The position numbers and the translations under genes were made by a program. Below are positions 15,443 to 57,759 of a stretch of DNA of 64,000 nucleotides, piece by piece. The notes beneath the pieces were generated by a model, which searched no databases, was not told where the DNA came from, and saw nothing but the letters and a program-made list of their open reading frames with translations. The stretch is taken from positions 124,001-188,000 of the forward strand of contig CALUVV010000004.1 in assembly GCA_944324305.1 (NCBI GenBank), given 5' to 3'. This stretch comes from Candidatus Gastranaerophilales bacterium (GTDB lineage: Bacteria; Cyanobacteriota; Vampirovibrionia; Gastranaerophilales; Gastranaerophilaceae). Each line of letters begins with the position of its first letter. Within the stretch, counting starts at the first letter, position 1.

Positions 15443-17379
15443 TTAATCCTCAAATCCGTATAACAATTTATATTCGGTAGATTTTTTATAATTCTCCAGC
15501 CAAATATGTTCTTCTTCCGTAAGTTCCGGCTTATCCTTTAGGTAATCATATCTTTCATATTTGTTATGAAATACAATTTTTTCAGGGGGGGGATTTCTTC
15601 ATCTTTTAAACTTTCAAGCAACAGTTTTTTATCTTCGATAGGCTTATAAATCACCGGTTCCTGTTCATTTAATAGGGGCAAATAAACTTTTTCACGCTTT
15701 AATTCTTTTAAATATTGTTTTACTGTTTGTTTTTCCAATTCTTTTTGTTGTTTTAATCTCTGTTTAAGTTCTTCTACATCTTTTGCCTCGCCGGTATAAT
15801 TGGCAAGAGGATGAATTGGCTCAAGCCTATCCGCAATACAAAGAAATTCTCCCTTAATCGTATAAACCTTTATTGACGATAAATCAAACAGACTATATTT
15901 TATAACAACTTGTGTTTTCAAGCCGTATAAGCATTCATGAAAATAATCTGATTTTAAAAATCTTATTCCGTTCCTGCCAATATTTTTGATGACAGTCACC
16001 ATCATTAAATCATCCAACTCTGAAATATCAACACCTTTCCCTTTCCCTGCCTCAAGAACCTCTCCGATTGTTAAGCCTTCAACATTTGGGCAGGGTTGAG
16101 CATAATGAAAATTTAACATCCATCGAGTTATATAATTTATAACCTCATTCAGCGTTGGAACGTATTTATTATGAATTTCATTGTGGAATTTTTCATTCCT
16201 CTTCTTATAAGCAGGTTTGTTATCAATATTAGAACCTACAAATGAGGGTAGTATCCGCTCAAAACTATCCTGCATTTCTCTAAAAAATCTCTCTATCGGT
16301 TTAGCCTTAGCATTATATGGTTTTGCAAAAATTGGAGTAATTCCTAATTTTATAAATAAACCGCTAGCAGGATTATTATCTGTAAAATAGTCTGCTTTAT
16401 ATGCTTTTCCATTATCTTGATAAACAAATTTAGGGTACTTACCTAACGTTATAATTGAATTTCTTAATGCTGAAGCAATACACTGGGTATTTTCTTCAAG
16501 CATAACTTCAAAGCCGACCATTGCACCGGATTTCCAATCTTGATAAGCGGTAATTGTCGGTCGGCATGGCTTTCCGGTAAACGGATTTATAACTTCAAAT
16601 GCGAGTCTGTGACCGTCGCCAATTAAAACATCTCCGACATTTAATTTTAAAATATCTCTTTCTATATATGGTATGACTTTATCTCTTAGTGCCTTTGCCC
16701 CCTCTCTCGCAAATACCCACATGTCATAATGCTCTTGTTTGTATTTTGAAACAAATCTTCGATAAGTCATTTCACTGGCAAATTTAGTTATTCCTTGTTG
16801 AGATAAAATGTGTTTTGTCAGTTTGATAGCCTTGCCTATATTTGGCTGGTTAGGATTTAACAAAATTTTTAGTACTGTTTCTTTTTCTTTCTCCGAAAAA
16901 CTTTCATTATAAGAGTGCGGTTTATATTTTGGAGCTAAGGATTCCCAATTGTCGCCGTTTTCTTTAAGGGTTTTATCCCATCGCAATATTGTTGAAATAC
17001 TAATTTTATTCAAATTTTCATAAGAAAATTCTTTTGAAGTCATTGTATTATAGATACTAATAAATTCTTTAACAGCATCAACTTTCTTGCCTCTATAATT
17101 AATACAAAACTTTCGCCATTGCATTACAATATCAAATTTAGTCAATGCCCGTTTTTTACTTTTTTCACTTATTGGAATTTCATAATTAGAATTATTAGTC
17201 TTTGGAGTATATAGGTTATTTATTTTTTCTTGCAATTCTTCTTCAACTGACGCAACCAATACTTCATATCTTTGACAAACCTTGTGTCCTTTATATTTAC
17301 CGCTGATAATAGCTTTTCTAATTGCTCTATCTGATACTCCCTTAATTTTTGCCAGTTCTGTTGCTCTAATCCACTCCAT
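15443..17379 (-). CDS. MuA-like DDE transposase, outer element, C-terminus frameshifted
   Basis: An N-terminal Mu-type winged helix (WIRATELAKIKGVSDRAIRK), a helical region, an RNase H-fold core with GDGH (first Asp), VYQDNGKA (second Asp) and KPIERFF (Glu) supplying the DDE triad, then the Mu C-terminal beta domain and a charged tail. As written the frame ends at 15538. A run of eight C on the coding strand (complement of 15585-15592) precedes the break; with nine or six C the frame continues through NKYERYDYLKDKPEL to a stop at 15443. That tail aligns with the C-terminus of the inner-element transposase (NYEKYEWL...SDEYYNLYG), so the full protein should be 645 residues. An AGGAGA ribosome site precedes the ATG. 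The tail contacts MuB in Mu, so loss could matter. Confidence 0.88.
15585..15592. repeat. G8 homopolymer at the transposase frame break
   Basis: Eight G on the plus strand (eight C in the coding strand). One extra base would restore the conserved transposase tail. Confidence 0.9.
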
Positions 17380-43388: not shown

Positions 43389-44128
43389 ATGAAAAACTTA
43401 TTTAATTATGTCACGCGGGGGGGGGGCGTAATCTAAGCTCCGTTCAGGGTTTTACCCTCGCAGAGGTACTTGTAACTTTAGGTATCATAGGCGTGGTATC
43501 TGCGATGACCGTGCCTTCATTGATGCAAAATCATCAGCGTAAAACTTATGTAACACAATTACATAAAGTTTATAATGAACTTAATCAGGCTTTTGTCAAA
43601 TTTAAAAATGATAATAATGCTTTAACTCTTTTGGAAGCAGGATTAAGCGATCAAACTGCAGTAAATAATTTTTTAAAAACATATTTTAAGACGGTAACTG
43701 TTTGTGACACGCTTGAAGAACCTTGTGTTTATGATGCAAAATATAAAAACCTTAATGGTGTTACTTTAGTAAATAACTGGTGGCCTGATGTGAATTGTGG
43801 TGTACTTGGCAGCGGTGCCTCTGTATGTATTGAGACATTTCATAATGACAAAGTTAACGGAATAAAATACGGTCATATTTTTATTGATATTAACGGATTA
43901 AAAGGTCCTAATATTGCGGGAAGAGATGCTTATGTAGTTATGTATTATGAAGACGGAACAATTGATGAAGAGGGTGTTGCCCCATCCTGTAATGCAATGA
44001 AAGAATGTACCGTTGCAAGTAATGCTTCAACCTTAAGAGAAGAAAAATATGCTAGATGTCAATCACATTCTGAGTTCAAAGGCTGCTTCGGTAAAATTTT
44101 AAATGATAATTGGGAAATGAATTACTAA
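43389..44128 (+). CDS. Prepilin-like protein 1, frame broken at a G10 tract
   Basis: From the ATG at 43389 (ribosome site AAAGGAG) the frame reads MKNLFNYVTRGGG and stops at TAA seven bases after a run of ten G. With 11 or 8 G it continues as RNLSSVQG|FTLAEVLVTLGII, a prepilin leader with the peptidase site G|FT and a hydrophobic helix, then MTVPSLMQNHQRK, KTYVTQLHKVYNELNQA, a variable middle with cysteines and the tail GCFGKILNDNWEMNY: 246 residues in all. Such proteins are type IV pilin or type II secretion pseudopilin-like and should be membrane-inserted or assembled. As sequenced the gene is off unless ribosomes slip -1 or polymerase adds a G. It has its own promoter and terminator. Confidence 0.85.
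43417..43426 (+). repeat. G10 tract in prepilin gene 1
   Basis: CACGC, ten G, CGTA. One G more or two fewer joins leader and mature protein. Confidence 0.92.
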
Positions 44129-47868: not shown

Positions 47869-48575
47869 ATGGAAAACTTATTTAATTCAGCCACGCGGGG
47901 GGGGGGCGTACTTTAGGCTCAGCTCCTGCGTTTACACTTGCAGAGGTACTTGTAACTTTAGGCATAATCGGTGTAGTATCTGCGATGACCGTTCCGAGTT
48001 TAATGCAAAATCACCAGCGCAAAACTTATGTAACACAGTTACACAAAGTTTATAATGAGCTGCAACAGGCTCTTATGCAGTATCAGACGGATAGGAATGC
48101 TTTAAATTACAAAGAAGCCGGTTTGAATAGTTCAGATGCGGTTAGGAATTTTGTAAAAACATATTTTAAAGTTGTAAATGATTGCGGAACAGATGTTGAG
48201 CCTTGTTTTGCAAAGGATTATCATGATATGCATGGTACAAATTATGTAAATCTGCTAAAGGGTGATACTTATAAATATGTATTAGCAAGTGGTGCAGCTA
48301 TTAATATTGAAGCTCCTGATGTAAATGGAAATCTAACAGCTCATATTGATATAAATTCTTCTAACGGACCTAATATAATGGGACGTGATTTATTTGCTTT
48401 AAAAATTTATAATAATGGTTTAATTGATGATAGTGATTCAAATGGGACATTAACTGCTCCGTTGTCAACTGAGAAAAGAGAAGAATTATTCCAAACATTA
48501 TGTAATACCGCAGGCGGTGATTGGTGGGGCTGTTTCGGTAAAATATTAAATGACAACTGGGAGATGACTTATTAA
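47869..48575 (+). CDS. Prepilin-like protein 2, frame broken at a G10 tract
   Basis: Starts MENLFNSATRGGG behind GAAAGGAG and stops at TAG seven bases after ten G. With 11 or 8 G it reads RTLGSAPA|FTLAEVLVTLGII, then the same MTVPSLMQNHQRK and THE Q-L-H-K-V-Y-N-E-L block as copy 1, a different middle (NALNYKEAGLNSSDAVRN, NDCGTDVEPCFAKDYHD, MHGTNYVNLL), a conserved SSNGPNIMGRDLFALKIYNN segment and the tail GCFGKILNDNWEMTY: 235 residues. The residue before the cleavage site is Ala rather than Gly. It is the only copy without an obvious consensus promoter just upstream. Its stop overlaps the convergent gene at 48572 by four bases. Confidence 0.85.
47897..47906 (+). repeat. G10 tract in prepilin gene 2
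   Basis: CACGC, ten G, CGTACTTTA; same context and same frame offset as the tracts at 43417 and 57045. Confidence 0.92.
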
Positions 48576-52451: not shown

Positions 52452-54739
52452 ATGGTAAGTATAAATATTGGCGACGGCCAGGGCATTACATACGCTATTC
52501 AAGATGCAATAGGTGCTAAAAATATTAAAAATAAAGACTTAGCCAGCTGGCAAAAGGTTATGGCAGAAGTTAATAATGCTCAAAATAAAATTAACCAGCA
52601 TAATAAGGCAAATCCTGATAATAAAGAAAAAAGTATTTTTACGGGCGGTAATAATGTAAATGAGATTGGCGATAAAACAAAGTACCATAAGAATTTTGTT
52701 GTTCAGAAGGGTACTATAGAAATTGATGACAGTACATGGAAGAAAATTGTTCAAATTTTAACAGGAAAAACATCTGAGACAAAACCTCAAGAAGAACCGC
52801 AGAAAGCTCCCGAACCATTAGATGCCAAACCGCAGAAACTCGGGGGGGGGGCAGATATCCCTGATACCATAGAGCTTTCTGATGCGGCAAAAAGAGCTGC
52901 AACAGAAAGCAGGATTGATACTCTCGGCGGCAAAATAATAGAACGTTCTGTTAATGGCGAAAAACAGGATATTGCAGTTGTCGAAATTAACGGACAAAAA
53001 GTCAGGAGAGAAATAAATGAGGACGGAACTCTCGGAGACACTTTAGCCGCAACTAAAACTTTCGGTAAAAATAAATACATTTCAGGTGATTTTCTTCCTG
53101 AAACAAAAATCCTTGAGCGCGAAGTTAACGGAAAAAAACAGCAAATAGGTATTTATGAAGATGAAAACGGTAATAAAGTAAGAAAACTCGTAGTTACTGA
53201 CGAACAAACAGGTAAAACAACTTTAGGTGAAAATTTGGTAACCGTTTCTACCATGGGTAAAAATAAATATGTAACCGAAAGTAAGTTTAATTCCGATGTA
53301 AAAACAATGCTTGGTCTCGGAGAAGATGAACAAATTCCGGACGGCTTAAAAGCAGAATACGTTACTATCGGTGGAGAATCCTCAATAGTTATTAAAAAAG
53401 ACGGTAAAGTTATGGATTCATCTCAATTAAGAGCATATATGGCCGAATATAGAGCGAATGATACCAAACTTGCGGAAGCTTTTGATAATTCGTTTAACAC
53501 AACAGGGCAGGCAGAAATCGGCGATGCCGCAAAACTTGCAAAATCTCAAATGAATTTAATAAATAATAAATTCGGGGATAAGCAAGGCAATATCAGTTCG
53601 GATGATATGTTTAATTACGAGCTTGCCTCTGCGGAAAAACAGCTTGGCAGAAAATTAACTGATGATGAAATGGCTAATCTGCGTGCAATGTCAGATTTAA
53701 ACTTTACAATTTTTGACACAGACGAAAGCGGAGACATTACCGAAGCGGAATTAAAAGCTTTTATAACAAATGCTAATGAAGATAACAACTCAATACTTAC
53801 AGATAAAGAACGAACTGAATATGCAGAAAAAGTCTTTGGAGAAAGAGCCAATAAAAATATTACATTGGCAGAAAATAACGGATATACTTTAAATAGTATT
53901 GTTTATAACGGTGTGGATACTCCTGTTTATCAAAAAGACGGAAAGACCTATCTTGCTGACCCCATAACATTTAAAGTCGGAGAAGAGTTCATTCCCGATG
54001 AAACATCGGGGGGGGGGCACTAAAAGCTGATGAAAAGATAGTTCCCAAAAACCAAGAGCCGATAAATGAGCTAAAACTTTCACAAAATACCGGCGATAAT
54101 ATTGTAGAACCTTCTAAAAAGCAGCCTGCTAATCAGGTATTGTCAGATATTAAATCTTTGAAAACAGGCCAATCTTATACATTTACAAAGGTTAATACAA
54201 GTTTGGAGGTTATTGACGGAAATCTTCAAAATATTGAATATTCAATTCAATACATAGCTTCTAAAGATGCTAACGGTAACATAACAGTTAAAAATCAAAA
54301 TAATGGTGATATTGCCGTATATAACAGTAACGGAGAACCGATTGCAAATGAAACCGACAATGGCTTATTTGATGTCAAATGCAATTTTGGGAAAATTCGT
54401 ACTCATGATGACTATCTGAATAATGTTCAAACACTGGACTTATCTGAAGCAAACTTTAATTATTTTGGCGGGATAGACCAGTTTTTATTAGAAGTTTCCA
54501 AATTGGATGGTGCTGCTGTTTATAATTCGAGCGGTAATCTTTTATTCTCCTGTGAAAGAGGCGGATATGATGAACCTGATATTTTTAAAGGAGAGAATGG
54601 ACAAAACTTAACAAAAAAACAAGTTGAAGATTTAATTAGAAATAATAAACTGTCAAAAATAGAAATAAAAGATGTATTTAATCTTAGACATGTTCAAGAA
54701 TACCATAATTTAGAAGATGATATCAACAGTCCCTTTTAA
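52452..54739 (+). CDS. EF-hand-like repeat protein with two G10 tracts, frame broken at the second
   Basis: As written the frame runs 52452-54023 (523 residues). It starts behind AGAGGAGC, has EKSIFTGGNNVNEIGD (about 62), a first G10 tract read in frame as KLGGGADIPD (about 131), two repeats of the type REVNGKKQQIGIYEDENGNK, and calcium-binding-like loops NKFGDKQGNISSDD and FDTDESGDITEAELKAF (about 415-430). The second G10 tract (54008-54017) is followed by CAC TAA. With 11 or 8 G it would continue ALKADEKIVPKN to 54739, 762 residues in all, adding a beta-rich domain. The 199-codon frame seen at 54140 has only a TTG start inside this extension. No signal peptide seen. Role unknown. Confidence 0.75.
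52842..52851 (+). repeat. First G10 tract of the EF-hand-like gene (in frame)
   Basis: Here ten G keep the frame; a gain or loss of one would stop translation early. Confidence 0.92.
54008..54017 (+). repeat. Second G10 tract of the EF-hand-like gene (frame break)
   Basis: Ten G give CAC TAA; eleven give an extra 240-residue domain. Confidence 0.92.
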
Positions 54740-57016: not shown

Positions 57017-57759
57017 ATGAAAAATTTATTTAATTCATCCACGCGGGGGGGGGGCGTACTTTAAGCTCCAATAACGGTTTTACCCTTGCGGAAGTTTTGG
57101 TAACGTTAGGTATCATAGGTGTGGTCTCTGCGATGACCGTGCCTTCTTTAATGCAAAATCATCAGCGTAAGACTTATGTAACACAGCTGCATAAAGTATA
57201 CAATGAATTAAATCAGGCATTATTGCAGTACCAGACGGACAGAAACGCTGTAAATTTATCGGAAGCAGGCTTAACAACAGTAAATTCTCTGTCTGAATTT
57301 TTTAAAAAATATTTTAAAATTGTTCAAGATTGCGGCGATGATCAAACTCCTTGTTTTTCTGACAGTTACAAAAAAATTGCCGGGACTGATGCCGCTGTTA
57401 CCTGTGCACATAACTGCATGGTGCTTGCAAATGGGGCTGCTATCGGAACGGCTAATGAATTCTTAAGCGGACAAACAATAATTGCGCAAATTGTTGTTGA
57501 TATAAACGGGCAAAAAGGACCTAATATATTAGGCAGAGATGCTTTTTCTTTATTCTTATATAAAAACGGAGTTATAGACGATTTAACAAGTGCCGACATA
57601 TCAGATGATACTAACTATGAATGGGGCTTTGCTTCAGCACCTTTAACAAAAGAACAGAGGGATGCAAATTTTACCTTTGGGTGTGAGAGTTCAGACGGCG
57701 GGCGTTGGCACGGGTGTTTCGGTAAAATCTTGAATGATAACTGGGAAATGAATTACTAA
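57017..57759 (+). CDS. Prepilin-like protein 3, frame broken at a G10 tract
   Basis: MKNLFNSSTRGGG behind AGAAAGGAG, then a TAA seven bases after ten G. With 11 or 8 G it reads RTLSSNNG|FTLAEVLVTLGII, MTVPSLMQNHQRK, KTYVTQLHKVYNELNQA, a variable middle (NLSEAGLTTVNSLSEF, VQDCGDDQTPCF, AHNCMVLANGAAI), the conserved NGQKGPNILGRDAF block and the tail GCFGKILNDNWEMNY: 247 residues. Leader, helix and tail match copies 1 and 2 almost exactly while the middle differs. Its promoter has consensus boxes, so transcription in the present off state should be strong. A terminator follows. Confidence 0.87.
57045..57054 (+). repeat. G10 tract in prepilin gene 3
   Basis: CACGC, ten G, CGTACTTTA. Confidence 0.92.

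Follow-up and report, generated by a model that had tools for sequence, protein, structure and literature searches.

The gene at 52452-54739 of the 64,000-nucleotide stretch of Gastranaerophilales DNA analysed here (the window) carries two runs of ten guanines (G10), which are part of a genome-wide set of about 170 near-identical elements. We consider it probable that this set governs a large default-OFF pilin repertoire, together with some glycosyltransferases and secreted proteins, that is phase-varied by replication slippage. The sequence-only reading of this DNA had described a gene with two tracts and several product lengths; its sequence description stands, but it missed the main point, a genome-wide set that, in the half surveyed, lies mostly in prepilin-like genes. 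The source genome (2.2 Mb, 99.98% complete; G000), from a gut bacterium related to the cyanobacteria, contains 169 exact G10 runs. Tracts were surveyed in detail on its contigs C1-C4 (1.02 Mb, about half of the genome), gene calls are those of our own open reading frame analysis, and the direction of replication was inferred from GC skew.

A gene with two G10 tracts

The ATG at 52452 opens a 523-codon frame that, as the sequence-only reading had it, crosses tract 1 in frame (..KLGGGADIP..), and ends at a TAA at 54021-54023, just 3' of tract 2 (Table 1). The proposal that tract 2 truncates the protein and that 11 or 8 G would add about 240 residues was confirmed by a 239-codon frame at 54020-54736, which is joined to the 523-aa frame at either length and with 11 G gives 2286 nt, or 762 aa. 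The predicted products of 523 and 762 aa were recovered, but the "about 135 residues or less" given for the shortest was slightly low, as a change in tract 1 would lead to a stop at 137 (G11) or 139 (G9) residues. The window as a whole holds 16 G8 words against 0.14 expected from shuffles. One G8 run, at window 15585-15592 and antisense to a 600-codon ORF, has neither the C flanks nor the motif described below and is probably unrelated to the G10 set.

Table 1. Features of the window, given as window positions or as residues of the 523-aa ORF
Feature	Position (strand)	Description
Prepilin-like gene	43389..44128 (+)	Leader MKNLFNYVT; G10 43417-43426; ORF from 43427; N_methyl; OFF, needs +1
Prepilin-like gene	47869..48575 (+)	Leader MENLFNSAT; G10 47897-47906; ORF from 47907; OFF, needs +1
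523-aa ORF at G10/G10	52452..54023 (+)	Three regions
N-terminal lineage domain	residues 1-~125
Beta-rich body	residues ~145-335
EF-hand-like region	residues ~350-515
Tract 1	52842..52851 (+)	In frame; low-confidence linker after the N-terminal domain
Tract 2	54008..54017 (+)	One base out of frame with the C-terminal domain; also G10 in G004
C-terminal domain frame	54020..54739 (+)	239 codons plus stop; reached at 11 or 8 G
Prepilin-like gene	57017..57759 (+)	Leader MKNLFNSST; G10 57045-57054; ORF from 57055; N_methyl; OFF, needs +1

The predicted model of the 523-aa protein is poor (pLDDT 60); that of the C-terminal domain reaches an AlphaFold pLDDT of 79.6, and a fold search with it against the PDB gave no match. 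In the predicted models both tracts lie in low-confidence sequence, tract 1 in a linker and tract 2 at an end, so both probably encode flexible glycine stretches between domains. No Pfam EF-hand match above the cut-off was found for the 523-aa ORF. Of the two EF-hand-like loops proposed earlier, one is good by eye, DTDESGDITEAE at residues ~421-432, with weak support from EF-hand_6 (E=0.0017, 18.3 bits against a cut-off of 25), and the second was not detected.

A homologue in genome G007 (L033) carries the N-terminal domain, the body and the C-terminal domain in one 591-codon open frame that has neither a tract nor the EF-hand region. Judged from this fused, tract-free frame, the C-terminal domain is normally joined to the rest of the protein. 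The sequence-only reading had asked whether the domain after 54023 is normally fused, and had named homologues with the two parts as separate genes with their own starts as the outcome that would count against it; L033 answers the first point, the second outcome did not turn up, and a separate C-terminal gene is ruled out by the fused homologue. The EF-hand region is present in the source genome and in G004, the closest relative with data, and absent from G007. In G004 the gene lies at the same place, adjoining groEL; tract 2 is again G10, and tract 1 would fall within a scaffold gap (N). Comparison of G000 with G004 shows all 239 codons of the out-of-frame C-terminal domain to be intact, at a dN/dS (omega) of 0.40, against 0.13 for the body. 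Since G004 keeps both tract 2 at G10 and this frame intact, the 762-aa product is plausibly used.

The N-terminal domain of about 125 aa (..GQGIT.AI..W..VM.EV..IFTGG..W.KIV.LLTGK) occurs at window 52452-52830 and at four further loci (L036, L037, L038 and L041), none of which has a G10 tract after it. The "F-T-G" motif noted earlier as shared with other lineage proteins is indeed so, as SIFTGG recurs in the N-terminal domains of homologues from other species. The C-terminal regions that follow this conserved domain differ by species, as in polymorphic secreted proteins.

Tracts in the genome and its relatives

The 1.02 Mb of C1-C4 contain 83 runs of exactly ten, rare runs of 11, and no runs of 7 or 9 G. 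About three quarters of the tracts in this half of the genome interrupt the leader of prepilin-like genes; conversely, about three quarters of the prepilin-like genes have a tract, the remainder having mostly ordinary short leaders. As homopolymers the tracts are of slippage-prone length, associated with genes and far above chance in number. More than 30 genomes of the family carry G10 tracts. Most members of the genus have fewer than G000, some species are nearly without them and have mostly ordinary short leaders in the prepilins sampled, and the order beyond the genus mostly lacks them. The usual length differs in other species, being 12-16 in the prepilins of G002 and mostly 11-12 in G049. 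Within GTDB r220, the only records with the extended motif were those titled Gastranaerophilales and 'Fusobacterium sp. CAG:439', the latter taken here to be of the same clade; the viral contigs scanned did not contain the motif. A search of the literature on phase variation or pili in Gastranaerophilales found nothing on such tracts. Scaffold gaps and contig ends of G004 often fall at G10 tracts (C70:32770, C70:46705-46760, C52:84634), so that metagenome assemblies may break or misjoin there.

Tracts outside the prepilin-like genes mostly stand in frame at G10 where they lie within long ORFs. The genes, named by eye, include glycosyltransferases, a heptosyltransferase, a matrixin-like protease (a metalloprotease) and an AAA ATPase, and a histidine kinase has a G10 run near its start. 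Glycosyltransferases, heptosyltransferases and metalloproteases are classes typical of phase-variable genes.

Prepilin-like genes and their reading frame

Type IV (pre)pilin-like proteins have an N-terminal methylation/cleavage motif, G/A-F-T-L-x-E, followed by a hydrophobic helix. Two of the three window genes match Pfam N_methyl (E=1e-5 and 6e-6); the third does so below the curated cut-off (E=0.0024). On C1-C4, 66 prepilin-like genes bear a tract, which is G10 in 62 (~94%) and is read as poly-C in about one fifth. Scored by a simple Shine-Dalgarno heuristic, every one of the 62 G10 tracts needs one additional base to bring the best Shine-Dalgarno ATG into frame, and the four tracts of other lengths (G11, G11, G11 and G8) are all in frame. 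Most of the OFF frames have no start of their own: 45 of the 62 lack any ATG, GTG or TTG, and 11 more have only a GTG or TTG.

The same rule holds in a second species, G047: wherever a G10 tract there has a Shine-Dalgarno leader, it needs +1 (20 of 20); the G11 and G8 tracts stand in frame, and a single G9 is OFF. Most tracts of G007 and G004 agree with it, and the runs of 12-16 in G002 are out of frame in the six genes scored (6/6). Misfits occur in other species, at G007 C2:62343 and several G11 loci, and since only 9 of 14 scored G11 prepilins drawn from many species are in frame, the rule as read from these sequences is strong but not absolute outside G000.

The OFF frames are conserved. 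In close G000/G004 pairs their dN/dS is 0.09-0.30, which marks these frames as under purifying selection, and tract length sets the frame of downstream sequence that is itself intact and conserved. Natural length variation between close relatives is represented by one clear orthologous pair, prepilins 96% identical in protein sequence with G11 (ON) at C2:68431 of G000 and G10 (OFF) in G004. Another apparent G10/G11 pair, with G004 C52b:48797, borders a scaffold gap and was set aside. The prepilin genes at G000 C1:140350, C1:170823, C2:68431 and C3:118201 have a TGTTATAAT box between tract and pilin motif and in some cases a further start, suggesting a second promoter downstream of the switch.

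Replication polarity and flanking motif

On each of C1-C4, all motif-type tracts share a single strand, the one with positive GC skew, so that across this 1.02 Mb G10 is always on the leading strand, whichever way the gene runs. Prepilin-like genes on the leading strand accordingly read G10 and those on the lagging strand C10, with zero exceptions on C1 and C4 of G000 and C2 of G007. The polarity flips near the maximum of cumulative GC skew in G047 C3 and G004 C52, as expected at a replication terminus. Being independent of gene direction and flipping at the skew maximum, the strand rule, as far as GC skew marks the forks, tracks replication and not transcription.

The tracts share the motif TC-G10-CRNNYTNNARGCTYC, with TC before the run and CA or CG after it, and a weaker motif, NNYTNNARGCTYC, lies 3' of the run on the G strand. 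A matrix trained on G-coding prepilins gave a mean of 3.2 for 14 C-coding prepilins and -5.6 for 22 non-prepilin sites, against -11.7 for random genomic sites; none of the sampled random sets reached either mean. Since the motif follows the run in one group of genes and precedes it in the other, its conservation is read as acting at the DNA level.

Proposed phase variation and its alternatives

Of the explanations considered, phase variation by replication slippage fits the frames, the conservation and the polarity best. G10 would be the resting length, and the tracts would act as ON/OFF switches through slippage of DNA at replication, the prepilin flanks being set so that with ten G the leader ATG misses the frame by one base. 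A prepilin gene would be turned ON when its tract gains one G or loses two, and at any time a cell would express only a few prepilins of the many it encodes. In the gene at 52452-54739, tract 1 would be ON at G10 and tract 2 would decide whether the C-terminal domain is added. We infer that switching takes place among the cells of a population, that replication slippage drives it and that the products are surface or secreted proteins. The argument draws on the 62 of 62 prepilins that need +1 with four other lengths in frame, on OFF frames that are conserved and mostly without a start of their own, on the G11/G10 orthologue pair, on tract genes of typical phase-variable classes, and on the experimental precedent of Bifidobacterium breve pili (PMC9187656).

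Because the G run keeps to the leading strand in genes of both directions, a process at the replication fork is favoured over one in the mRNA, as an mRNA mechanism would predict one base whatever the gene direction. This bears on programmed slippage during expression, in which RNA polymerase would add one G (or C), or the ribosome would shift -1, at a fixed G10/C10 and every gene would be expressed at a low level. Such a mechanism accounts for the fixed ten with its constant need of +1, the scarcity of G9, alleles of 8 and 11 directly in frame, and conserved OFF frames with no change of DNA. It must, however, serve mRNAs with a G run or a C run according to whether the gene lies on the leading or the lagging strand, where one slippery sequence would be expected in all members; the motif lies on opposite sides of the run in the two groups, DNA alleles of 11 and 8 occur, one in a close orthologous pair, and the polarity is left unexplained. 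We regard it as unlikely. The polarity and its flip near the skew maximum are instead what would be expected if TC-G10-CA were a replication-oriented site for a DNA-binding or translocating protein, with the frame effect secondary. KOPS and Chi are likewise short, G-rich motifs biased to the leading strand, and the tracts share with them the strong bias that flips at the terminus; exact length, and a 3' motif common to prepilin genes of opposite orientation and to non-prepilin genes, would also follow. KOPS and Chi are not known to take a fixed out-of-frame phase within a gene family, and a site of this kind does not explain why 62 of 62 prepilins share a single phase when the majority of other genes are in frame, or why the tracts are concentrated in prepilin leaders. 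Some species of the genus are nearly without it, and we hold the idea to be distinctly improbable.

The tracts are far tighter in length than those of Campylobacter, and G9, which would be as OFF as G10, is nearly absent, which plain slippage combined with selection on frame does not predict. The flanking motif has no role in ordinary slippage, and MutS1 and MutL, both present in the genome, should damp it; their presence rules out loss of mismatch repair as the cause of the tracts. G013 (92% complete), which has no G10 tract, gave no MutS1 match over the cut-off, and the other tested genus members have one. Slippage does not account for the exact length of ten, the scarcity of G9 or the motif, and this leaves room for a dedicated length-setting factor. 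TC-G10-CRNNYTNNARGCTYC might then be a dedicated replication-oriented element, at which a specific factor holds ten G and switches by one base, so that the genome-wide default-OFF pilin repertoire would have its length set by machinery and not by passive slippage; we hold this to be a minority possibility. An element inserted or reset by dedicated machinery on the lagging-strand template would also yield sharp lengths (no 7s or 9s on C1), a flanking motif and replication-linked polarity. The GGG encoded by the run in the glycosyltransferase at C1:76066 is presumably native to that family and needs no insertion, and C4:190113 compared with G007 shows a replacement at the tract site with a small in-frame gain; we consider such an element very unlikely. 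Least credible is an artefact of assembly or sequencing in homopolymers: G004 does have scaffold gaps (N) at several tracts, tract 1 of the present gene among them, but tracts occur in more than 30 of the family's genomes, species agree in both frames and motif, and the order for the most part is without tracts.

Comparison with known systems

In Neisseria pilC and opa, a repeat tract in or near the leader region switches a pilus or surface protein ON or OFF by frameshift. The prepilin tracts resemble these in their place in the gene and in setting the reading frame; pilC and opa comprise few loci, and we know of no shared DNA motif or replication polarity there. In the sortase-dependent pili of B. 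breve, replication slippage at intragenic G10/G11 tracts has been shown experimentally (PMC9187656). That system, too, is found in pilus genes of a gut commensal, with the annotated length OFF and a change in length fusing two frames, but it comprises two loci and sortase pili, with bbr_0113 turned ON by loss of one G (PMC9187656). Here there are about 170 tracts, which carry a flanking motif and follow replication polarity, and the prepilin-like genes have a type IV (N_methyl) motif and would be turned ON by +1 G. The Campylobacter phasome, with 5-81 phase-variable genes per strain by PhasomeIt (PMC6321876; PMC4965091), likewise has many poly-G/C tracts of about 9-10 within ORFs of surface-modifying genes. 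Its poly-G tracts are 53% nine G and 26% ten G (PMC6321876), the share of ON tracts in one dataset is near the prediction of neutral drift (PMC6321876; PMC4965091), and flanks are reported to have no effect on slippage products (PMC4965091). In contrast, ~94% of the prepilin tracts described here are exactly ten, poly-C coding accounts for about one fifth, and every G10 prepilin is OFF. The present tracts stand apart from the systems compared in their exact length, their replication polarity and their flanking motif.

Conclusions

Homopolymer phase variation is known mainly from pathogens, in which a few dozen loci vary broadly in tract length and lack a flanking signal. The roughly 170 tracts of this uncultured gut lineage have one exact length, one replication polarity and a common flanking motif, and a large prepilin family stands a single base away from ON. 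Many of the tract genes will be split or missed by gene callers, so the pilin repertoire of Gastranaerophilales is probably under-annotated. The tract set offers a direct natural test of the control of slippage by fork direction, and it suggests a means by which these bacteria may diversify their surface in the gut.
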